Below are positions 2,431 to 20,307 of a DNA stretch of 21,209 nucleotides, in pieces. The notes under the pieces are model-generated. The model searched no databases and was not told the DNA's origin. It saw only the letters and a program-made list of their open reading frames with translations. The translations under genes and the position numbers were made by a program. Within the stretch, counting starts at the first letter, position 1; each line of letters starts with the position of its first letter. This stretch comes from a virus: positions 1 through 21,209 of the IMG/VR virus record IMGVR_UViG_3300029787_000399; one strand, given 5' to 3'.

Positions 2431-3009
2431 GTGGTATTTCCTTCTAAAATTCGTTCTGGCGACTTAATTCAATGGCGAGATCCAGCTACAAATGATGTCT
2501 ATGGTAATCCAATAAGCAGTCCAGACTGGACAGTTATTTATTATTTAAGAACTAATAAGTCAAGGATAGGAGCTACGATTACAAGTAGTGCATATGGAGA
2601 TGGGTTTCAATTTAGTATTCCATCTGCCACAAGTGCAGATTTTGTAGATGGCGATTGGTTTTTTCAAGCAGTTGCAAATAAATCTGGTAATGAAATTCAA
2701 ACTATAGGAACTGGAACATTTAAAGTCTTACCAAGCTTGGCTTATACAGGATCTAATCCAAAAGCTTTTGATGGTAGAACAGATACTGAAAAGACTTTAG
2801 ATTTAATAAAAACGGCAATTGACAATATAATGAAGGGAGGTGCGATACAAGAATATAAGATAGGAACAAGAACAGCTAAAAAATATACTTTAGAAGAATT
2901 AGAAATGTTAAAAGGTCGTTATATAGGTATGGTTAATTTAGAAAAACAGGCAGAATTAATGGCAAATGGTCTTGGTAATCCAAGAGCAATGTATGTGAGG
3001 TTTAAATAG
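2431..3009 (+). CDS. Two-domain head-tail connector: beta domain plus gpW-like C-terminus
   Basis: The 192-residue protein begins at GTG; no other in-frame ATG occurs before codon 134 and no clear ribosome site is visible. Residues about 1-103 form a beta-rich domain (YYLR, GDGFQFSIPS, GDWFFQA, TGTFKVLPSL) of a kind I recall as separate small proteins in other phages. Residues about 117-192 resemble lambda gpW (68 residues), with a helix, a basic hairpin (IGTRTAKKYTLEELE), a second helix and the ending GNPRAMYVRFK, compared with GPAGFYV in gpW. gpW fills the portal exit after packaging and prepares tail attachment. The position between terminase and portal is the same as W in lambda. The N-terminal domain's role is unknown; it could enter the mature head. 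Confidence 0.75.
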   Translation: MVFPSKIRSGDLIQWRDPATNDVYGNPISSPDWTVIYYLRTNKSRIGATITSSAYGDGFQFSIPSATSADFVDGDWFFQAVANKSGNEIQTIGTGTFKVLPSLAYTGSNPKAFDGRTDTEKTLDLIKTAIDNIMKGGAIQEYKIGTRTAKKYTLEELEMLKGRYIGMVNLEKQAELMANGLGNPRAMYVRFK

Positions 3010-4550
3010 TGAATATTTTTCAAAGAACATTAGCAGTATTGTTTCCACGATCATTTGGCAAAATGAAACGTGTATATCAAGGAGCATTAGTTTCAAGACT
3101 TACATCTGATTGGATGAGTAGCCAACTTAGTGCAGATGCTGAGATTAGAAATAGTTTAAGAAAACTAAGAGATAGATCAAGAGAATTAATTAGAAATAAT
3201 CCATATGCAAAACAAGCAAAAAGAACAACACAATTAAATATTGTTGGGACAGGAATGGCATTTAGATCTGAAGTTATACAAATCAGAGGAAACAAAAGAG
3301 ATGAAAGAATAAATACACAAATAGAAGAAAAGTGGAAAGAATGGACTAGAGCATACAATTGTGATTGTGCTGGTCGTCATAACTTCCACCAATTTGAATG
3401 GATGGCTGCTGGTCAGTTCCCAGAATCTGGAGAAGCTTTATTTAGAATCGTAAGACAACAATTTGGTAATTCAAAAGTTCCTCTTGCTTTACAAGTTATT
3501 GAAAGTGATTTATTAGATGAAGAATATAATGGCAAAACACTTAGTAAAAATAATGAATGGCGAAATGGAGTGGAAGTTGATTCCTGGGGTCGCGCCGTTA
3601 GGTATTCGATTATGTCTAGACACCCTGGAGATGCATATTATTTAAAAAACCAAGGAAAACAACAAGAAAATTTAATTTTACCTGCTGAAGATGTTATTCA
3701 TTTATTTATGCCAGAACGACCTGGTCAAAATAGAGGAGTACCTTGGTTTCATCCAGTAATGGAAGATATGCATCAATTGCAAGGCTACGAAGAAGCAGCC
3801 GTAATTCGAGCGCGAGCTGGAGCAAGCATCCAAGGTTTTATTACCAATAATTCTGGAGAGTTAATAGGAGATGAAGTTCAAGCTAATCAAAGAGTGCAAG
3901 ATTTTGAACCAGGAACTTTTCGGTATCTTCAGAATGGAGAATCTGTAACTGTTCCAGATATTGACTATCCAAGTCAACAGTATGAAATGTTTGTAAAAAA
4001 CAAAATCAGACGTTTTGCGTCAGGTTTTGGATGTAGCTATGAAACGATTTCAAAAGATTTCAGCGAAACAAACTATTCAAGTTCAAGATTAAGTTTGCTT
4101 GAAGATAGAGAACATTGGAAGTTTTGCCAAAAATATATAATAGATAATTTTCATTATCGAATATTTAAAGAGTGGTTAGGATTAGCAGTTCTTGTAGGAG
4201 AATTAGATTTTCCCGATTATGCGTCAAGGTCTGAAAGATATTGCAAACCTAAATGGACACCTCCTACACAACATTATGTTGATCCTTTAAAAGAAGTTAA
4301 AGCATATCGAGAAGCAGAACAAGCAGGGTATATGACTAAATCACAAGTCATAGCAATGAACGGTGGTGGCGATTATGACGATATTGTTGCAGAGATTGCC
4401 AGAGAGCAAGAAGTTGCAAAGGGCTTAGGAGTAACATTAGATAAAGATTTAGATCTTGAAGTTGAGATGGGTCAAATGGAATTAGATCTATCTTCTAACG
4501 CACCAACTCAAGAACAAAAATCAAAACCTACAAAAAGGAATAAAAAATAA
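3009..4550 (+). CDS. Portal protein (lambda gpB family)
   Basis: This 513-residue protein would form the dodecameric ring at one capsid vertex through which DNA enters and leaves. Lambda-type portal signatures are clear: ERPGQNRGVPWFHPVM (236-251), GCSYETISKDFSETNYSSSR (341-360), LLEDREHW (363-370) and WTPPTQHYVDPLKE (416-429). The tail end is acidic and then basic (KPTKRNKK). Translation starts at GTG, overlapping the preceding TAG by one base; GAGG at 2997-3000 lies eight bases upstream and supports this start over the ATG at 3063. Lambda gpB is 533 residues and is trimmed at its N-terminus in the head; whether that happens here cannot be seen. Confidence 0.97.
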   Translation: MNIFQRTLAVLFPRSFGKMKRVYQGALVSRLTSDWMSSQLSADAEIRNSLRKLRDRSRELIRNNPYAKQAKRTTQLNIVGTGMAFRSEVIQIRGNKRDERINTQIEEKWKEWTRAYNCDCAGRHNFHQFEWMAAGQFPESGEALFRIVRQQFGNSKVPLALQVIESDLLDEEYNGKTLSKNNEWRNGVEVDSWGRAVRYSIMSRHPGDAYYLKNQGKQQENLILPAEDVIHLFMPERPGQNRGVPWFHPVMEDMHQLQGYEEAAVIRARAGASIQGFITNNSGELIGDEVQANQRVQDFEPGTFRYLQNGESVTVPDIDYPSQQYEMFVKNKIRRFASGFGCSYETISKDFSETNYSSSRLSLLEDREHWKFCQKYIIDNFHYRIFKEWLGLAVLVGELDFPDYASRSERYCKPKWTPPTQHYVDPLKEVKAYREAEQAGYMTKSQVIAMNGGGDYDDIVAEIAREQEVAKGLGVTLDKDLDLEVEMGQMELDLSSNAPTQEQKSKPTKRNKK

Positions 4551-7040
4551 ATGGCAAATGTAAACGGAACTGACATAAATCTTATGCCAACTGAAAGCAT
4601 GAAGAGTGCTGCAAAACAATATAAGAAATGGAAATCTGAAGGTAGAGCAGGTGGTACAGATGATGCTGCTAGAAGAGCAACACAAATATTAAGCGGAAAT
4701 GAACTATCACCTGATATCGTTATTACAATGAATGCATGGTTTGCTCGACATGAATCGGACAAGTCAGGCAAAGGATTCAACTCAAGTGAAGAAGGCTACC
4801 CATCAAAAGGCAGGGTCGCTTGGTCAGCTTGGGGATCGGATTCTGGACAGACTTGGGCTAAATCTAAGTCGAATGCAATTAAAACAGCAAGGGAGCGTTC
4901 TATGACTGAAGAAGTTGTAACTGAAGAAAGAGCAGCACCAGATGGGCTGAAATCAGGAGATTTTGTTTCTTGGAATTCAAGCGGTGGCACTGCTAGAGGA
5001 AAAATTACTAGAATTGTAAGAGATGGATCAATTGACGTACCAGATTCATCGTTTACGATTACAGGAACAGCAGATGATCCAGCTGCTCTTATTACTTTGT
5101 ACAGAAATGGTGAAGCTACCGATAGAAAGGTAGGTCATAAATTTTCTACTCTTACAAAAATTGCCCCTATTAGAATGATTGATCCATCAGACAAGTTTGA
5201 AAGGAAAGAAGTTACTGATTTCAAAAATGTGAAATCAAGAACATTTGAGTTTCCATTTTCATCTGAACAACCTGTAAAAAGGGTATTTGGTAACGAAGTG
5301 TTAAGCCATGAAGAAGGAAGTGCAGATTTAGTTCGACTAAATGATGGCGCACCATTCCTCTATAATCACGATCCCAACCGTGTTTTAGGAGTAGTTGAGT
5401 CTGCATATATTTCAGATACCGATAAGCGCGGATACGCTAAAATCCGCTTTTCTCGCTCTAAATTTGCTACTGAAGTCTTAGAAGACGTTAAAGACGGTAT
5501 TTATCGTGGAATTTCGTTTGGATATTCAATCGAAAAATTTGAAGAAATGGATGATGGCTTAAGAGCAGTCTCATGGATTCCGCACGAAGTTAGCTTGGCT
5601 ACGATTCCAGCAGACAATTCCGTTGGTTTTGGAAGAAGTTTGATAGAACCCTCACAAGGTAATAGTATTAGTATGGAAGATAAGTCTCCTCTTGAGGAGA
5701 CAAATTCTGCGGTTGAACCCGCATCAACAACAGTCCGTAACATGGAAGAATCAACTAAACAAACTGCGGTTGATACGGCAGAAGCCGTTGAAATCGATGT
5801 CAAAGCCGAAGTACAACGTGCTATTGACGAAAATAATGCTCGTACAGCTTCAATCACAACATTATGTCGTGAGTACGCACAGTATGGAGCAGAAGATATT
5901 GCAGATGCATTAATCAGAGGAAATAAATCTCCTGACGAAGCAAAAGCAGCAATCCTCGATCTTGTAAAAAACAAGGCAGAGGTTAACAATACCCCTATCC
6001 GTTCTACTGACATGAGTACTAATGAAGTTGGCTTAGAGCCAAAAGAAGTTAAAAGATTTTCTTTTACAAGAGCTTTACACGCTTTAACTAATCCAACAGA
6101 TCGTAAAGCACAAGAAGCAGCATCTTTTGAAAGAGAAGTATCTGAAGCTGCTTCTAAGAAATATGGCAGACCTGCTGGAGGTATTCTTGTTCCTAACGAA
6201 GTTCTTCAAGAAAAAAGAGACTTAACCGTTGGATCAGCTACTGCTGGTGGAAACTTAGTTGCAACTGAATTATTAGCTGGTTCATTTATTGAGCAGTTGA
6301 AAAATTCTATGGCGATAATGGCTGCAAATCCTTCCATGTTAACTGGACTTGAAGGTAATATTTCAATCCCTAGACAAACATCTGGATCAACAGCTTATTG
6401 GGTTGGAGAAGGAAGCGCTCCTTCAGAGAGTAACCTTGCGTTCGACCAAGTGAACATGACACCAAAAACTATAGGTGCATTTGTTGACTACAGTCGTAGA
6501 CTGCTTTTACAAGCTTCTGTTGATGTTGAGCAAAGAATAAGAAACGACATTGCACAGAATATTGCACTTGAATTAGATCGTGCTGCTATCTATGGAACAG
6601 GTTCTTCAAACCAACCATTAGGTATCAAAGATACAACTGGTATTGGTTCTCAATCTTTATCAACTTTCGGCACATTCGCTGAATATGTAGGGATGGAGAC
6701 AGATATTGCGGTTGCAAATGCTGAAGTAGCAAATATGTTCTACATCATCAATGCAAATGCTAGAGGTGCTTTAAAAACTACTGAGATTGCTTCTAATACA
6801 GCAAAGTTTGTATTTGAAAATGGTGAAATTAATAGCTACAAAGCTATTGTTACTAATCAACTTCTAAATAATGACGCATTATTTGGAGACTTTAGTAAGT
6901 TCACTATTGGTATGTGGTCTGGTTTAGATCTTACTGTTGATCCTTATGCTGGAGCTACTAGCGGAAACGTAAGAGTAATAGCCTTACAAGATGTCGATTA
7001 CGCTGTGACTCAGCCAGGCGCATTTTGTTTCGCTACTTGA
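4551..7040 (+). CDS. Fusion: phage domain, Tudor-like domain, prohead protease and major capsid protein
   Basis: The 829-residue polyprotein has five parts. Residues 1-118 form a small domain (AWFARHESDKSG, then AWSAWGSDSGQTWA) that I recall from other phage proteins without a known function. Residues 131-205 (GDFVSWNSSGGTARGKI ... VGHKFSTLTKI) resemble the HVA1/DUF2945 Tudor-like domain. Residues about 215-365 are an HK97-type prohead protease (family U35) with H273 in YNHDP, S322 in GISFGYS and E346 in PHEVSLATIPAD. Residues about 375-530 are acidic and helical, like a scaffold or delta domain. Residues about 540-829 are an HK97-fold capsid protein (GNLVATELL, SIPRQT, WVGEGSAPSES, SRRLLLQAS, AAIYGTGSSNQPLGI). 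Start: ATG directly after the portal stop, with AAGGA at 4534-4538. Self-cleavage should release mature capsid protein of about 30 kDa. In-frame internal ATGs at 5673, 5742 and 6012 are possible extra starts. Confidence 0.93.
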   Translation: MANVNGTDINLMPTESMKSAAKQYKKWKSEGRAGGTDDAARRATQILSGNELSPDIVITMNAWFARHESDKSGKGFNSSEEGYPSKGRVAWSAWGSDSGQTWAKSKSNAIKTARERSMTEEVVTEERAAPDGLKSGDFVSWNSSGGTARGKITRIVRDGSIDVPDSSFTITGTADDPAALITLYRNGEATDRKVGHKFSTLTKIAPIRMIDPSDKFERKEVTDFKNVKSRTFEFPFSSEQPVKRVFGNEVLSHEEGSADLVRLNDGAPFLYNHDPNRVLGVVESAYISDTDKRGYAKIRFSRSKFATEVLEDVKDGIYRGISFGYSIEKFEEMDDGLRAVSWIPHEVSLATIPADNSVGFGRSLIEPSQGNSISMEDKSPLEETNSAVEPASTTVRNMEESTKQTAVDTAEAVEIDVKAEVQRAIDENNARTASITTLCREYAQYGAEDIADALIRGNKSPDEAKAAILDLVKNKAEVNNTPIRSTDMSTNEVGLEPKEVKRFSFTRALHALTNPTDRKAQEAASFEREVSEAASKKYGRPAGGILVPNEVLQEKRDLTVGSATAGGNLVATELLAGSFIEQLKNSMAIMAANPSMLTGLEGNISIPRQTSGSTAYWVGEGSAPSESNLAFDQVNMTPKTIGAFVDYSRRLLLQASVDVEQRIRNDIAQNIALELDRAAIYGTGSSNQPLGIKDTTGIGSQSLSTFGTFAEYVGMETDIAVANAEVANMFYIINANARGALKTTEIASNTAKFVFENGEINSYKAIVTNQLLNNDALFGDFSKFTIGMWSGLDLTVDPYAGATSGNVRVIALQDVDYAVTQPGAFCFAT

Positions 7041-12827: not shown

Positions 12828-13720
12828 GTGTACTTATATCTGAACTACAGAAAACAGATCCAAGTGCTGTTATTGAGTTATTTGAATTACAACTATCACA
12901 AAGTTTGCATGGAGCTACAACTATTTATAGATGGCATTCTGGTGTAGCAACAAATGCAACAGGAGAATTAGTTTTAAACAATGTTACTTATAATGCATTA
13001 CCAATTGAAGCAGAAGGTTTTGATTATAAAGGAGGAAAAGAACAACAATTACCAAGACCTACTTTAAGAGTTAGTAATCTATTAAGTACTGTAAGTGCTA
13101 TTCTTTCAAATGTTAATACTGTTACTCCATATAATAATTTAATTGGAGGAAAAGTTACAAGAATAAGAACACTTGCAAAATTTCTTGATTCTTCTAATTT
13201 TGGCCCTGGAACATCAACTTATAATGTAACTGTTGTAAATAGTAGTGGTAATAAATTTGCTTTAAACGGAGTAACAAATCCAACAATAACTTTAGTTAAA
13301 GGTGGTACTTATATTTTTTATCAACATGATTATTCCAACTCTGGTCATCCAATAGCCTTTAGACAAACAGATGATAGTGCTTATGTAGCTGGAGTATCAA
13401 CAACAGGAACTGCTGGATCGGCAGGGGCTAGAACTACTTTTACTGTTCCTTCAAACGCACCATCATCTTTAAAATATTACTGCACAGTTCATGGCAATAC
13501 TATGGGAAACAATATAACGATTTCAAATTATTCTAATCCCGATGCAAATGCATCAATAAGATTTCCTGATGATGTTTATTATATAGATCGAAAGTCTTTA
13601 GAAAATAGAGAATTAGTTGAATTTGAATTAGCAGCAGTATTTGATTTGGCAAATGTAAAAATTCCAAAACGACAAGCATTACCAAGTATTTTCCCTGGTA
13701 TTGGATCTTTCCATGCTTGA
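12824..13720 (+). CDS. Tail tip protein gpL-like with inserted cupredoxin-like domain
   Basis: The 298-residue protein combines lambda gpL sequence with an insert. Residues 1-130 follow gpL (VIELFELQLSQSLHG, YRWHSG, EGFDYKGGKEQQLPRPTLRV, GGKVTRIRTLAKFLDSSNF). Residues 237-278 resume it (SNPDANASIRFPDDVYYIDR, RELVEFELAAVFDL). Between them, residues about 132-234 form a beta domain with H175 (SGHP), C220, H223 and M227 (CTVHGNTM), a candidate type 1 copper set. The C-terminus ends at LPSIFPGIGSFHA where lambda gpL continues into a domain whose cysteines hold an Fe-S cluster; C220 is the only cysteine here. gpL is part of the tail tip and hub. GAGG at about 12810-12813 precedes the start. Confidence 0.92.
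   Translation: MSVLISELQKTDPSAVIELFELQLSQSLHGATTIYRWHSGVATNATGELVLNNVTYNALPIEAEGFDYKGGKEQQLPRPTLRVSNLLSTVSAILSNVNTVTPYNNLIGGKVTRIRTLAKFLDSSNFGPGTSTYNVTVVNSSGNKFALNGVTNPTITLVKGGTYIFYQHDYSNSGHPIAFRQTDDSAYVAGVSTTGTAGSAGARTTFTVPSNAPSSLKYYCTVHGNTMGNNITISNYSNPDANASIRFPDDVYYIDRKSLENRELVEFELAAVFDLANVKIPKRQALPSIFPGIGSFHA
13217..13525 (+). other. Cupredoxin-like domain inserted in gpL
   Basis: This stretch encodes gpL residues about 132-234. It opens with TYNVTVVNSSGNKFALNG, continues through TITLVKGGTYIFYQHDYS and SGHPIAF, and closes with SSLKYYCTVHGNTMGNNITI. The order His, then Cys-x2-His-x3-Met near the end of a seven- to eight-strand beta domain is that of small blue copper proteins; plastocyanin has C-x2-H-x4-M and amicyanin C-x2-H-x2-M. 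The insert falls in the loop between gpL motifs FLDSSNF and NPDA. Copper binding is inferred from the ligands only. Confidence 0.75.
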
Positions 13721-14417
13721 TTGGCAATTAAAAGCAGAACAACACGCTAGAGATGGATTTCCTAGTGAAGTTTGTGGCCTTGTTATTTGTATAAAAGGAA
13801 AAGAAAAATATATGCCATGTAAAAATTTATCAGTTAATACATTAGATCATTTTATTATTGATCCTACTGATTGGGCTGAAGCAGAAGATAGTGGTACGAT
13901 TATGTCAGTATTTCATTCACATCCTTATCAATCACCTAATCCAAGTGAAGCAGACAAAGCTGCTTGTGAGTTAACAAAAATACCTTGGTACATATATGGA
14001 GTAGGTGTTAATCAATGGCATGATTTCAAACCGTCAGGATACAAAGCTCCTTTAATAGGACGTAAATGGGTATGGGGTGTTCACGATTGTTGGACATTAA
14101 CAAAAGATTATTACGAAAGTAAAAATATAGTTTTACGAGATTGGGATCGTCCTAATGATCCAGAAGAATTTCAAATGAATCCTTATTTTGATAAATGTTT
14201 CGAGGATACAGGTTTTAGACAACTTACTAATGAAGAAGTTTTACAAGAAGGTGATAGTCTATTGTTTTCTCTGAACAGTACAGGTTTAAATCATGTAGGA
14301 GTCTATCTTGGTAAGCAGATGTTACTTCATCATATTCAAGGTAGACTAAGCTCAAAAGACTTTTATGGGGAATGGCTTATGAAAGCTACAGGCATGAGGT
14401 TACGATATGTTGCGTAA
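13713..14417 (+). CDS. Tail tip peptidase gpK-like: JAMM metalloprotease plus NlpC/P60
   Basis: With the ATG at 13713 the product has 234 residues (lambda gpK 199 to about 250 depending on start). The N-terminal half is a Mov34/JAB-type metal peptidase: E19 in PSEVCGL, then FHSHPYQSPNPSEAD with H68, H70, S78 and D81. The C-terminal half is an NlpC/P60 cysteine peptidase: C126 in VHDCWTLTKDYY, H194 in LNHVGVYLG and H206 in LLHHIQG. All catalytic positions are intact, so both cell-wall cutting and protein processing at the tail tip are plausible. A longer frame starts at TTG 13701, but ATG 13713 gives the usual family start and an eight-base overlap with gpL. Confidence 0.93.
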   Translation: MLDWQLKAEQHARDGFPSEVCGLVICIKGKEKYMPCKNLSVNTLDHFIIDPTDWAEAEDSGTIMSVFHSHPYQSPNPSEADKAACELTKIPWYIYGVGVNQWHDFKPSGYKAPLIGRKWVWGVHDCWTLTKDYYESKNIVLRDWDRPNDPEEFQMNPYFDKCFEDTGFRQLTNEEVLQEGDSLLFSLNSTGLNHVGVYLGKQMLLHHIQGRLSSKDFYGEWLMKATGMRLRYVA

Positions 14418-15021: not shown

Positions 15022-18000
15022 ATGACTGATCAAAAGTTTATTGCTGGTTCTGGAGGAGGAGGAAAAGGTGGAGGTAGTTCTTCTAAGACTGCACCAGATT
15101 CTTTAGATAGTAGGTCACACGCAAAAATTATTGATGTAATATCAGAAGGTGAAATAGAAGGTTTATATAATCATGGTAATGTGCCAAACGCTAACGCATG
15201 GCAACGATCAGTATTCTTAAATGACACACCAATAATGAACTCTGATGGTTCATTAAATTTTGATGATGTCACTCTTCATGTAAGAAACGGTACTGCAAGT
15301 CAAGCTGTAGTACCTGGTTTTGAAACAGAAGCTGCTTCTCCAACCAGTGTCAATTCAAATGTAACTAATAGTGGAACTGGAGTAACTTTTCAAATTACAG
15401 ATACAAGTGTAGATGCTGTAACTCTTACTATTGGTGTTCCAGTTTTACAAAAAATTAAAAAGAATGGAGATACAGAAGGTACTTCTTTTAGATATACGAT
15501 AGAAAAACAACAACATGGTGGTAGCTTTGCTTTTCTTGGAGGTTTTAACGATACTGACGAAGCTGGAAATGTTGTTGGAAGAGAAGTAAAAGGACGTACT
15601 GCTGATTTATATCAAGATCAACACAGCTTTCAAATAACAGGAAATACCTTTCCTGTTACTTTTAGAATAAAAAGAACAACGGCTGATGACTCTACTTTAG
15701 ATTTAGATGCCTTAGATCTTATTAGTCATCAAAGTATTTTTAAATTAGTAAGTTTCCAAGAAATAAAATATGGATTTCATAAGTTAGACGCAACTTACAG
15801 TCAAGCTGCTCAAGTTATTACTGTTAATGCACCTTTCCATAATCTTATTGTTGGTGATTCTGTAAAATTAACTTTCACAAGTGGTAACCCTGCTACTGCT
15901 ACGAATATCTCAGCAACTACAGTTACTACTGTTGTAAACAGAGATCAATTTAAAGTAAACACAACTGCTGCATCTCAAACTATTTCATCAGGTGCTGTTG
16001 AGGTTTTACAGATATTTAATTATCCAAACTCTGCTTTAGTTGGTCTTAGAGTTGATGCTGAACAATTTTCAAGTATTCCTAAAAGAGCTTTTCGTGTTAG
16101 AGGTACAAAGGTAAGAATCCCAGCAACTAATAGTTCTGGAACTGTCTCTGTAGATGCAACTACTGGAAGGATAATATATCCGTCAGGTTATGTTTTTAAC
16201 GGTACATTACAAGCTGCTACATGGACTACAGATCCGGCTTGGTGTTTATATGATTTATTAGTTTCACGAAGGTTTGGGCTAGGAGATGAGATATTAACTG
16301 ATGCTGAAAAAGCTAATTTTTCTACAGGTGTAGCTTCTAATTTAGATATTTATTCTTTTTATTCTACAAGTCAATATTGCTCAGAATTAGTTACTTTTAA
16401 ATTTAGATTAAATGATGGTACAGAAAATACAATTACAGAACCAAGGTTTTCTCTTAATGCGGTTATTAATAAAAGAGAAGATGCTTTTAAAGTTATAAAT
16501 AATTTGTGTTCTGTATTCAGAGGTATGGCAATGTATACCGCTGGTAAACTAACTCTTATTCAAGATCGTAAAGGCCAAGATACATCATTCTTATTTACCC
16601 TAGCTAATGTGACACCTGATGGGTTTCAGTATTCGTCATCTTCAGTCAAAACAAGAGTTACAGTTGCAGTAGTAAAATATTTAGATTTAACTCTTAGAGA
16701 TACAGCCTATGAGGAGGTTCTTGACGAATCAGCTATAGCTAAATATGGGGTAAATACAAAAAACGTAGACGCATTTGGAGTAACATCACGCTATCAAGCA
16801 CGAAGACTTGGACGATGGTTGCTTTATTCATTAGCAAATGAAACAGAGTCAGTTGCGTTTACTACGACTTTAGAAGCTGGTGCTTTGTGTAGACCAGGTC
16901 AAATTATTGAAATAGCAGATCCAGTAAGAGCAGGGGTAAGAAGAGCAGGGAGAATTATGGGAGTAAATGGCACAAACCAAATTACTATTGATGATACTTC
17001 TATCACAGACTTACCTAATAATAGTGTTTCTTATACAAGAACTCTTCATGTAATCATGCCTAACGGTACGGTTTCAACAAATACAGTATCAAGTATTAAT
17101 GGAACTACTATTACAGTAGTCGATAATTTTAAACAAAAAATTCAAGATAGTAATAATAATACTGATAATTATTTTTTATCTACAACTAACAATTCTTATA
17201 ACTTTAATGAAGAAGATTATGTTCTTACAACTCAAACAGTTGCCCCAAATTTAAATTCAATTTGGATATTAGAAACAAGTCAAGGTACTAGTAGCGAAAA
17301 CATTGAAACACAAACATTTAAAGTTGTAGGAGTAGAAGAAAAAGATGATTTTCAATATCAAATAACAGCAATAACTCATAACGAATCTAAATATGACCAT
17401 GCAGAACAATTAGAAACTTTAGAATTTAGAGATTTTACAAACTTAAATGAGATTCCAGCACCTCCAGCACAATTTGCTAATAGAGTTAATCCTGATAATT
17501 CAATCACTAAATATCCTATTGAACAACTATATAGATTTAAAGATACAATTAGAATAAAAGTAATTGTTGGATGGCAGCCTGTTTTAGGTGTAAATAGGTA
17601 TGAAGTTAAATACAGACAAGATAGTGGTAATTTAAAAACAGTAGTTGTTAATGGTAGCGATTTTGAAATTTCAGATGTAATCATAGATTCTACAAATAAT
17701 GAATCTAGATTTGATTTTGAAGTTAGAAGTGTTAATGCAGCAGGGGTAAGATCTGCCAGTGCATTAACAACAAAAACTCAAACATATTTAAACGGACAAG
17801 ATACAACTACAGGTGAATATTATTTAAAAGCTATTGGTAAATCTGCTCCTCCTAGTGATGTAACTGGTTTTAGTGGCACAATAGATCCTCATATTGGAAT
17901 TGTTTTAAACTGGACTGCTCCCACTCCTACTGCCCCAAGTTTTGCAGATTTAGATATAGAACAATACGAAATCAAATCTGGATCATGGTCTACAGGTACA

Positions 18001-20307
18001 TCATTAGGAAAAATAAAAGGTACGTCATTTAAAGTTGGAACTATACCTACAGGAACAACATCTCAAATATTCTCTATAAAAGCTTTTGATGCTGATGGCA
18101 ATCAATCTGTAAATCCAACCCAAATATCTTTAGCAGTTACTGCACCATCTGCTCCGCAAAATGGAACAGGAACATTCAGTGATGACAACTTAATTTTAAA
18201 ATGGGATGTTCCAGCTTCTGGTAGTTATGCCATAGAAGAATATGAAGTTTATCAGGGTAATATAAGTGCTTCAAATTTATTAGGAAAATCAAAATCTACT
18301 ACTTTTCAATTACCTGTAAACTTTAACAGTAATCAAACTTTTAATATTAGAGCCGTTGATATTGCTGGTAATTTAGGGACTTCTTTAGCTTTTACTGTTA
18401 ACTTTGCTTTAGCTCAAGCACCAAATATTAGTTATCAATATGAAAATAGTCAGCTTAAGTTATCTTGGGCAGTTCCTGTTGTTGGTAGTACAAAAATTAA
18501 AGAATATGAAATTAAACAAAGTGCAACTTCTGTTACTGATGCTGGTCAAGCGACATTTATTACTCGTGTAAGTTCTACAAGTTTTTTACTTGACGTTACT
18601 TGGAATACAAGTCAAAGATTTTGGGTTGCTGCTGTTAACAGTAATGGTGATATTCAAACTTTTGGTCGCACAGGTATCTCCAATTATCCAGATGTAACCT
18701 TTGATGTACCTCCAGCACCTACAGGTTTAACAGGAGTGTTAGTTGATGAAAGCGCAAGAATAGCATGGAATCCTGTCACTAAAACAGCTAATGGTTTACC
18801 TATTGCAGATTATAAAATTTATAGAACAGCAGGGACAGAAACATTAAACGAAGCAACTCATTTTATTGCACAACAAAATGGAACTCAATTTACAGAAAAG
18901 TGGATTAGAGATGAAATAAGTGGAGTTGTGCAAACACAAAAAAAATATCATATAAGAGCTTTAGATGTTAACGGCAATCAAGGTACTTTAAACGATATAA
19001 CTATTACAGCAAATCCACCAGAAAATATTACAACAATAGAAGCAGAAGTTGTTGATAATAATGTTTTACTTAGATGGACTGCACCTAATTCTGATTTACC
19101 AATAATTTATTACAACATTTATAGAACAAGTAAAACTGCTGGAAATTTGATTGGAGCAAAACAAGGTGGATTTACTACAGTTTTTGAACAAGTTGGAGGT
19201 ACGTTTACTTATATTGTAACTGCTGTTAATAGTGCAAAAATAGAAGCTGCTGCTGGAGGTAGTATTACAGCGATAGTAGATGAACCTCCTGATTTTGTAC
19301 TTAATGCTGAAAGAAATAGTGCTTTAATTTCTGGAACAATTACAGGCACATATTCTCAGTCAAACGATACAAATACTGGTGCTGGCCTTATAGTTACTGT
19401 TACAAAAGTAGATCATGGTTTGTCTAATAATCAACAATTAAATATTGATTTTACAAGCGGTACTGCAAACGGTACTTCTGATGACGCAAAAATCTATGTA
19501 ATATCACAAGTCACTCAAAATACATTTCAATTTCAAGTAGCTGGCAGTAGACAAACAACAGGTAATATTTCATATTCATCACCAGCAACATTTACTAACG
19601 GATTTATTGATAATAATTCAATATTTTTCTGTTTAGATAGCTCAAGAACATTTCAAGATCATTTTATTGGTACTGGATCACAAGCTAGTCCTCAATATCC
19701 TAATTTTGGTTCTTTTGGTGCTAATTCTGCTTACGCATTACCTTCAAAAAATAGTGCATTATTTCAAGAAATATTTGATTTTGGAGCAACAATACCATCA
19801 AGTAGGATTCAAGTAGATATGAATATTATTGAAACTATTGGTGAAGGTGTAACTATAACCCCACAAATTTCTACAAGTTTAAATGGTTCTTCTTTTACAA
19901 ATTTAGAAGCAGGGGCATCAAACGTTTTGGGTTTAAATTTTAGATATGTAAAAGTAATTTTTACATTGTCAGCATCAGGTAATAATGATTTAATTAAGGT
20001 TGATAATATTAGTCAAAGATTATTTTTGAAACAACAAACAGATCAAGGTAGTATTGACGTAACAGCTAGTGAAGCAGTATCTGGTAAACAAGTAAATTTC
20101 TTTGCTGGTAATTCAAATAAAGCTTTCCTTGATATTGATTCAATTACTTTACAAATAAGAGGATCTAGTGCAACAGCAAAGTTTGCTATTTATGATTTTG
20201 TAGATACAAGTAATCCACAAAATGGATTTAAGATATTTTTATTTGATGCCAGTGGTAATGCCCCAACAGGCACAAATACTGTAGACTTTACGGTAAGAGG
20301 AGTTTAA
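15022..20307 (+). CDS. Tail tip central fibre and hub protein (lambda gpJ-like)
   Basis: At 1761 residues this is longer than lambda gpJ (1132). Residues 1-60 carry the glycine-rich start and SLDSRSHAKIIDVISEGEIE signature. The hub domains follow with YPNSALVGLRVDAEQFSSIP (334-353), RVRGTKVRIP, PAWCLYDLLVSRRFGLG and RYQARRLGRWLLYS. About six fibronectin-III-like domains cover roughly 812-918, 944-1040, 1042-1128, 1131-1228, 1229-1331 and 1332-1420. Residues 258-328 and 1443-1520 are two related inserted beta domains. Residues 1521-1761 are a C-terminal beta region likely exposed at the tip. In lambda the gpJ C-terminus binds the receptor. GGAG upstream and the ATG right after the gpI stop support the start. 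Confidence 0.96.
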   Translation: MTDQKFIAGSGGGGKGGGSSSKTAPDSLDSRSHAKIIDVISEGEIEGLYNHGNVPNANAWQRSVFLNDTPIMNSDGSLNFDDVTLHVRNGTASQAVVPGFETEAASPTSVNSNVTNSGTGVTFQITDTSVDAVTLTIGVPVLQKIKKNGDTEGTSFRYTIEKQQHGGSFAFLGGFNDTDEAGNVVGREVKGRTADLYQDQHSFQITGNTFPVTFRIKRTTADDSTLDLDALDLISHQSIFKLVSFQEIKYGFHKLDATYSQAAQVITVNAPFHNLIVGDSVKLTFTSGNPATATNISATTVTTVVNRDQFKVNTTAASQTISSGAVEVLQIFNYPNSALVGLRVDAEQFSSIPKRAFRVRGTKVRIPATNSSGTVSVDATTGRIIYPSGYVFNGTLQAATWTTDPAWCLYDLLVSRRFGLGDEILTDAEKANFSTGVASNLDIYSFYSTSQYCSELVTFKFRLNDGTENTITEPRFSLNAVINKREDAFKVINNLCSVFRGMAMYTAGKLTLIQDRKGQDTSFLFTLANVTPDGFQYSSSSVKTRVTVAVVKYLDLTLRDTAYEEVLDESAIAKYGVNTKNVDAFGVTSRYQARRLGRWLLYSLANETESVAFTTTLEAGALCRPGQIIEIADPVRAGVRRAGRIMGVNGTNQITIDDTSITDLPNNSVSYTRTLHVIMPNGTVSTNTVSSINGTTITVVDNFKQKIQDSNNNTDNYFLSTTNNSYNFNEEDYVLTTQTVAPNLNSIWILETSQGTSSENIETQTFKVVGVEEKDDFQYQITAITHNESKYDHAEQLETLEFRDFTNLNEIPAPPAQFANRVNPDNSITKYPIEQLYRFKDTIRIKVIVGWQPVLGVNRYEVKYRQDSGNLKTVVVNGSDFEISDVIIDSTNNESRFDFEVRSVNAAGVRSASALTTKTQTYLNGQDTTTGEYYLKAIGKSAPPSDVTGFSGTIDPHIGIVLNWTAPTPTAPSFADLDIEQYEIKSGSWSTGTSLGKIKGTSFKVGTIPTGTTSQIFSIKAFDADGNQSVNPTQISLAVTAPSAPQNGTGTFSDDNLILKWDVPASGSYAIEEYEVYQGNISASNLLGKSKSTTFQLPVNFNSNQTFNIRAVDIAGNLGTSLAFTVNFALAQAPNISYQYENSQLKLSWAVPVVGSTKIKEYEIKQSATSVTDAGQATFITRVSSTSFLLDVTWNTSQRFWVAAVNSNGDIQTFGRTGISNYPDVTFDVPPAPTGLTGVLVDESARIAWNPVTKTANGLPIADYKIYRTAGTETLNEATHFIAQQNGTQFTEKWIRDEISGVVQTQKKYHIRALDVNGNQGTLNDITITANPPENITTIEAEVVDNNVLLRWTAPNSDLPIIYYNIYRTSKTAGNLIGAKQGGFTTVFEQVGGTFTYIVTAVNSAKIEAAAGGSITAIVDEPPDFVLNAERNSALISGTITGTYSQSNDTNTGAGLIVTVTKVDHGLSNNQQLNIDFTSGTANGTSDDAKIYVISQVTQNTFQFQVAGSRQTTGNISYSSPATFTNGFIDNNSIFFCLDSSRTFQDHFIGTGSQASPQYPNFGSFGANSAYALPSKNSALFQEIFDFGATIPSSRIQVDMNIIETIGEGVTITPQISTSLNGSSFTNLEAGASNVLGLNFRYVKVIFTLSASGNNDLIKVDNISQRLFLKQQTDQGSIDVTASEAVSGKQVNFFAGNSNKAFLDIDSITLQIRGSSATAKFAIYDFVDTSNPQNGFKIFLFDASGNAPTGTNTVDFTVRGV
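15793..16005 (+). repeat. First copy of a mobile TYSQ/HxL beta domain inside gpJ
   Basis: This encodes gpJ residues 258-328 (TYSQAAQVITVNAPFHNLIV, KLTFTSGNPATA, NRDQFKV). It interrupts the conserved hub sequence between EIKYGFHKLD and FNYPNSALVGL. It shares the plan TYSQ, V.V, H.L, FTSG, a QF.V strand and a closing SG or TG turn with 19348-19581. The similarity is at protein level. Confidence 0.65.
19348..19581 (+). repeat. Second copy of the TYSQ/HxL beta domain inside gpJ
   Basis: This encodes gpJ residues 1443-1520 (TYSQSNDTNTGAGLIVTVTK, VDHGLSNNQQLNIDFTSGTA, NTFQFQV, TTGNISYSS). It lies between the last Fn3-like domain and the C-terminal region. Alignment by eye with residues 258-328 shows the same order of motifs. 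HGL...FTSG...F.V domains of this sort occur, to my recollection, in other marine phage virion proteins. Confidence 0.65.

Follow-up and report, generated by a model that had tools for sequence, protein, structure and literature searches.

Fusions of a protease to a capsid protein are the closest described systems to the gene analysed here. In the fusions of PHROG 617, NF045541 and phage R4C gp6, an S78 protease, a scaffold-like region and an HK97 capsid protein are found in one chain, and the fusion gene comes after that for a lambda-type portal. The R4C shell has 415 subunits (PMC10276861). The R4C protease-capsid fusion is 629 amino acids long, without further modules, and the chain in the virion structure (8gta) is exactly residues 362-629, that is, the C-terminal 268 of 629, and therefore the first 361 residues are absent from the shell as solved. 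In phage T4 the internal proteins IPI-IPIII are small proteins that enter the prohead, are processed by the head protease and are ejected, with about 300 copies of each (PMC9026906). It has also been proposed that effector domains fused to MuF, portal or capsid-processing peptidase proteins are packaged in the head and injected (PMC9503650). For fungal Hva1 a link to NADPH has been proposed (PMC5008624), and in the literature searched no paper was found that treats its domain family, DUF2945, together with phage.

The locus described here lies in a stretch of DNA of 21,209 bp, referred to below as the window, which is the whole of its source virus record; the virus is a marine virus of bacteria. 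Its capsid gene has the protease, the scaffold-like region and the HK97 capsid in one chain and follows a lambda-type portal gene, as in the known fusions, but unlike them the family to which it belongs has two to three extra modules at the N-terminus.

Architecture of the capsid precursor gene

The gene at 4551..7040 on the plus strand, on which all of its parts given below lie, encodes 829 amino acids in a single unbroken frame. The Pfam families Hva1_TUDOR, Peptidase_S78 and Phage_capsid follow each other in this order from the N- to the C-terminus, each above its cut-off, with Peptidase_S78 at residues 265-354 (E 2.9e-8) and Phage_capsid at residues 566-828 (E 1.5e-40), and the match to PHROG 617 spans both protease and capsid (residues 226-828, E 2.6e-152). 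Against NF045541 (scaf_prot_MCP2, NCBIfam) the protein scores 158.9 bits where the curated cut-off is 525, and by this score rule it is a relative and not a member. When the full-length protein was modelled with AlphaFold2 (AF2) the result was a row of folded, bead-like domains joined by disordered linkers at residues 116-128, 208-220, 353-417, 480-500 and 553-577, and the best fold match in the PDB found by Foldseek was the R4C capsid 8gta.

The chain begins with a helical domain that we call dom1 (residues 12-117, 4584..4901), followed by a Hva1/DUF2945 Tudor-like barrel (residues 134-205, 4950..5165), the S78 prohead protease (residues 228-365, 5232..5645), a scaffold-like (delta-like) helical region recognised from AF2 helices and from the PHROG 617 and 4523 protease-capsid fusions (residues about 417-551, 5799..6205), and the HK97-fold capsid protein expected in the mature shell (residues 566-829, 6246..7037). 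H273 and S322 of the protease are invariant in two family alignments and are the probable catalytic residues. The preliminary description had read the gene as a major capsid protein fused to a protease, a Tudor-like domain and an extra N-terminal domain, and this four-part architecture is borne out by the intact frame, by the Pfam, PHROG and AF2 domains and by dozens of relatives. Two domains do precede the protease, but their limits had to be moved, since Hva1 starts at about residue 134 and not 131 and dom1 is residues 12-117 and not 1-118.

The gene sits in an ordinary lambda-like morphogenesis block, which has a small terminase (53-559), a large terminase (556-2424), a head-tail joining protein (2431-3009) and, directly upstream of the capsid precursor gene, the lambda-type portal (3009..4550, plus strand; PF05136, E 8.8e-102), with head-tail and tail genes downstream. 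Further along the window, a lambda K-like tail protein has a JAB domain and a NlpC/P60 peptidase within one gene (13701-14417), and a lambda J-like tip protein of 1761 amino acids (15022-20307) has a GH85 C-terminal-like domain (838-915) and a fibronectin type III repeat.

dom1 and the Hva1 domain

Residues 12-108 of dom1 match PHROG 2859 (E 5e-23), a family to which no function is assigned, and dom1 had no match among the Pfam and NCBIfam models. Its signature is G-G-T...FxRHxxDK...PSxGxxAWxxWGGDxG, with residues that are invariant across 106 relatives. When residues 1-226 were modelled with AlphaFold2 from an alignment of 106 relatives, two confident domains were obtained (mean pLDDT 87.6), namely the helices of dom1 between residues 15 and 122 (pLDDT about 97) and a seven-strand barrel at residues 138-204 (pLDDT about 90) in the Hva1 region. 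Solved relatives of dom1 were found neither by sequence nor by fold (Foldseek against the PDB), no catalytic motif was recognised in it, and no enzyme family was found in residues 1-226 with Pfam and NCBIfam. The dom1 region is a new helical domain of about 105 amino acids, and this work delimits, within PHROG 2859, a conserved domain that is absent from Pfam and NCBIfam.

Hva1_TUDOR (PF11160) matches at residues 136-184 with an E-value of 5e-7 and 30.1 bits against a cut-off of 24.1, or 34.2 bits when scanned alone. Among PDB structures the barrel matched the Cryptococcus Hva1 crystal structure 4p5n with the highest Foldseek probability (0.98; rmsd 3.3 A, 23% identity, E 0.17), and its other matches were Tudor/SH3-like barrels. 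Since an E-value of 0.17 is not significant alone, the assignment is carried by the Pfam match. With a family score above the cut-off and a barrel that pairs with 4p5n, the HVA1/DUF2945 Tudor-like fold that had been proposed for this region stands, and what sets it apart from fungal Hva1 is that it is embedded in a viral head polyprotein. The argument that these domains bind DNA because of their charge is weak, as dom1 (+6) and Hva1 (+2) have no more than a small net positive charge, and on this basis DNA binding is not compelling.

Relatives and selection

The gene is contained in 80 fetched viral contigs, mostly at full length and with a best-segment identity of 66-100%. The preliminary description had asked whether the same architecture occurs in other phages, and Roseobacter phage CRP-811 has dom1-Hva1-protease-capsid, as do dozens of IMG/VR contigs; in whole or in part it is common to dozens of independent marine contigs and to cultured Roseobacter and Synechococcus phages. 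Many relatives have a third module, PYP ('PYPNEHAA', RPYPNEHAA..., about 85 amino acids), between dom1 and Hva1. A duplication of dom1 was considered as the source of the extra 87 or so amino acids in relatives of 918 amino acids and was rejected, because the extra stretch is a separate module. In one MAG contig (L099:4920-7199) a module-capsid fusion has same-frame stops inside the PYP module; we do not read it as a fusion gene that has split naturally, and it is most likely a frameshift in that MAG, or else a decayed prophage. The pairwise dN/dS values of the dom1 and Hva1 modules are 0.006-0.27 and mostly equal to or below those of the capsid domain. In the relative L028, dom1 is 99% identical (dS 0.04) but the dS of Hva1 is 0.97, a contrast that points to module exchange by recombination. 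The fusion architecture is real and conserved.

Maturation and stoichiometry of the precursor

The start of the R4C virion chain, GG362, aligns with window residues 566-567, and from this we infer that the window precursor is cleaved near residue 566, the expected cleavage region being residues about 558-567 (LTVGSATAGG, 6222..6251) within the disorder predicted at 553-577. By analogy with R4C, the modules are very probably removed from the mature shell. The preliminary description had the extra domains welded to every capsid subunit, and for the virion the R4C homologue, which keeps only the C-terminal 268 of 629 residues, speaks against this. For the procapsid the claim is doubtful, as judged from a volume estimate and from conserved internal methionines. 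Residues 1-565 have a mass of 61.8 kDa and on all 415 subunits they would fill about 31,000 nm3. The lumen of an HK97-like procapsid has a radius of 18.5-20 nm, which gives 26,500-33,500 nm3 for a radius that is that of HK97-like procapsids and not of this phage. Unless the procapsid is larger, it is therefore implausible that every subunit carries these residues, and the N-terminus may be missing from some of them.

A methionine is present 20 or fewer residues before the scaffold-helix motif in all 34 representatives (below 80% identity to each other), and in the linker before the scaffold helices Met otherwise makes up 1.7% of residues. In the window the possible internal starts in this disordered linker are Met375 and Met398 (5673..5744), with a weak Shine-Dalgarno match (-3.9). 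At the dom1/Hva1 boundary, AGGGAG followed by the ATG of Met118 (4890..4904) has a duplex energy of -8.1 compared to -5.6 for the gene's own start (p 0.023 against a synonymous-codon null). Strong Shine-Dalgarno matches are found in several relatives at this boundary and in several before the scaffold motif, for example AAGGAG before MSEENQIDVEAV in CRP-811. When Shine-Dalgarno strength was compared family-wide with synonymous-codon controls, none of the three boundaries was significant (Wilcoxon p 0.54, 0.30 and 0.72), and Met118 is only a candidate, possible internal start. The conserved Met and the crowding of the lumen suggest that module-free subunits may also be made; the pattern could just as well be left over from genes that were once separate.

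Portability of the modules among phage head proteins

In S-LBS1 the same leader, MANVNG, runs directly into the protease, which shows that the modules are an optional insert, and the relatives S-LBS1, R4C and ep3 are all without them. Where modules precede the protease their order varies (dom1-hva, dom1-PYP-hva, dom1-hva-PYP, dom1-YAR-PYP and others), PYP and YAR being further modules that we defined, of which YAR is a weak match to DUF5824. Outside this fusion, ClpP-type, XkdF-type and separate S78 proteases have dom1 at their N-terminus, and in portals of several families and in one MuF protein it lies close to the C-terminus. Among 48 other phage-like dom1 proteins, in a survey drawn by similarity to dom1 and hence not a random sample, there were about 27 portals, 7 ClpP-type proteases and 7 S78 proteases. 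Exactly one dom1 was present per genome in 12 of 12 whole phage records, and no surveyed genome had two dom1 genes. Stand-alone dom1 away from head genes was seen in jumbo phage PaBG and Vibrio phage 150E35-1. In related phages the modules sit at the portal/protease junction, and this junction proves to be a slot for small modules that change from one carrier to another. Limnohabitans phage DC31 is a case in which dom1 is fused to an XkdF-type protease (L086:1329-2123) and Hva1 lies inside the next gene (L086:2123-3340), which encodes a coiled scaffold-like protein just upstream of the capsid gene; the domains thus do occur in separate genes near the capsid, as the preliminary description had thought worth searching for.

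A bacterial gene pair

On bacterial chromosomes dom1 is a gene of about 105 amino acids, mainly of Alphaproteobacteria in our sample. When 150 Sphingomonadaceae genomes were searched, 9 had dom1 and 71 had Hva1, and in 7 of the 9 with dom1 the two lay next to each other on one strand, with either of them first and with the domain matches 20-36 bp apart. As there is about one Hva1 gene per genome of 3-4 Mb, chance adjacency to dom1 is negligible. In a broader chromosomal set the two were adjacent in 10 of 60 cases. Several chromosomal pairs overlap by 4 nt, an overlap typical of translational coupling. In a neighbour comparison, chromosomal dom1 had no conserved partner across genera other than Hva1. 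The existence of the same pair as two small adjacent genes in bacteria makes it probable that its biochemical function does not depend on capsids. An uncharacterised bacterial gene pair (dom1 and Hva1/DUF2945) is linked here to phage head assembly.

Probable role of the modules

The explanation that we lean towards is that the gene at 4551-7040 encodes a self-processing capsid precursor which carries a portable dom1-Hva1 module as procapsid cargo and cuts it free at maturation. The S78 protease and the scaffold-like helices would work inside the procapsid, and the protease would cut near residue 566 to leave a shell of residues about 566-829, an end result that is seen in R4C and expected here. 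dom1 and the Hva1 barrel would reach the procapsid lumen through their fusion to a head protein, which would be the protease-capsid chain in this lineage and, in others, either the portal, at its C-terminus, or a head protease of its own gene, and would be released at maturation. That dom1-Hva1 is a portable module directed to the lumen is likely. As to its role there, the first choice would be a cargo with affinity for nucleic acid or some other ligand, which remains with the DNA or is injected together with it; by analogy this can be proposed only tentatively, and the freed fragments of 10-25 kDa could also exit the procapsid or be degraded. More speculative, and rather unlikely as a whole, is that phages captured an unnamed two-part bacterial module as capsid-borne cargo. 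On this view internal starts would set the fraction of precursors that carry it, the fused protease would release it, and it would remain with the DNA and enter the next host. dom1 is found on the same three kinds of carrier as the head-packaged effectors, whereas no recognised effector enzyme is present in dom1 or Hva1, and its carriers include the capsid protein itself, fused in the window to S78. The proposed modules also resemble T4 IPI-IPIII, which are encoded by separate genes with short targeting peptides and not as capsid fusions; ejection is established for T4 and is a hypothesis here. Should the modules be packaged, cargo would be delivered by the capsid protein itself, potentially in hundreds of copies, and the cultured marine phages CRP-406, CRP-822 and S-CBS1 make the packaging reading testable. 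The distribution of these domains is of more interest than was originally read, and the implied stoichiometry of less.

A role in assembly, in which dom1 and Hva1 bind a procapsid partner (portal, scaffold or terminase), help to nucleate or order assembly and are then discarded, is unlikely. In its favour, the phage carriers surveyed are with few exceptions head proteins in or at the procapsid, the modules are under strong purifying selection, each genome has exactly one copy of dom1, and in DC31 Hva1 lies within a coiled scaffold-like protein. The stand-alone pair in bacteria and the relatives S-LBS1, R4C and ep3 that lack the modules argue against it. The scaffold role suggested for dom1 in the preliminary description is itself unlikely, because other phages carry dom1 on the portal, which is normally a 12-mer; a copy number that varies from 12 to at most 415 with the carrier is a poor fit to a shell-wide scaffold. 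Control of the protease, which the N-terminal domains would tether or hold back until the shell closes, is improbable, for although the modules are fused directly N-terminal of S78, ClpP-type and XkdF-type proteases, about 27 of the 48 other dom1 cases are on portals and many proteases of the same family have no dom1. To the same low degree we consider a neutral passenger that hops at the portal/protease junction and is tolerated because it is cleaved off; high turnover and shuffling of modules and the N-terminal removal in R4C would fit such a passenger, but dN/dS values of 0.006-0.27 and a dom1 motif that is invariant across portal, protease and bacterial stand-alone forms do not. Finally, the internal Met codons at module boundaries would suit an assembly or gene-calling artefact that joined separate genes, but the same frame runs on unbroken in cultured phage genomes and in dozens of contigs of independent origin, which makes the chance of this practically nil, and the many independent full-length relatives exclude the assembly join that the preliminary description had considered.

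Further observations on dom1 carriers

In three head proteases (L242:4105-6222, L107:2543-4123 and L108:3542-5257) a ferritin/Dps-like domain is found with dom1 N-terminal of S78, and the first of these has an additional HAD-phosphatase domain, also N-terminal of S78. DUF3721 (PF12518, about 33 amino acids) is present in 13 of the 48 other dom1 proteins, and in L203 and L205 it lies between portal and dom1. The contig L243 has a separate protease-like gene (620-1423) upstream of two tandem capsid genes (1434-2774 and 2816-4141), and the N-terminal region, coiled and scaffold-like in the first of these, is replaced by dom1 in the second; the second is possibly a cargo-bearing minor capsid paralogue.
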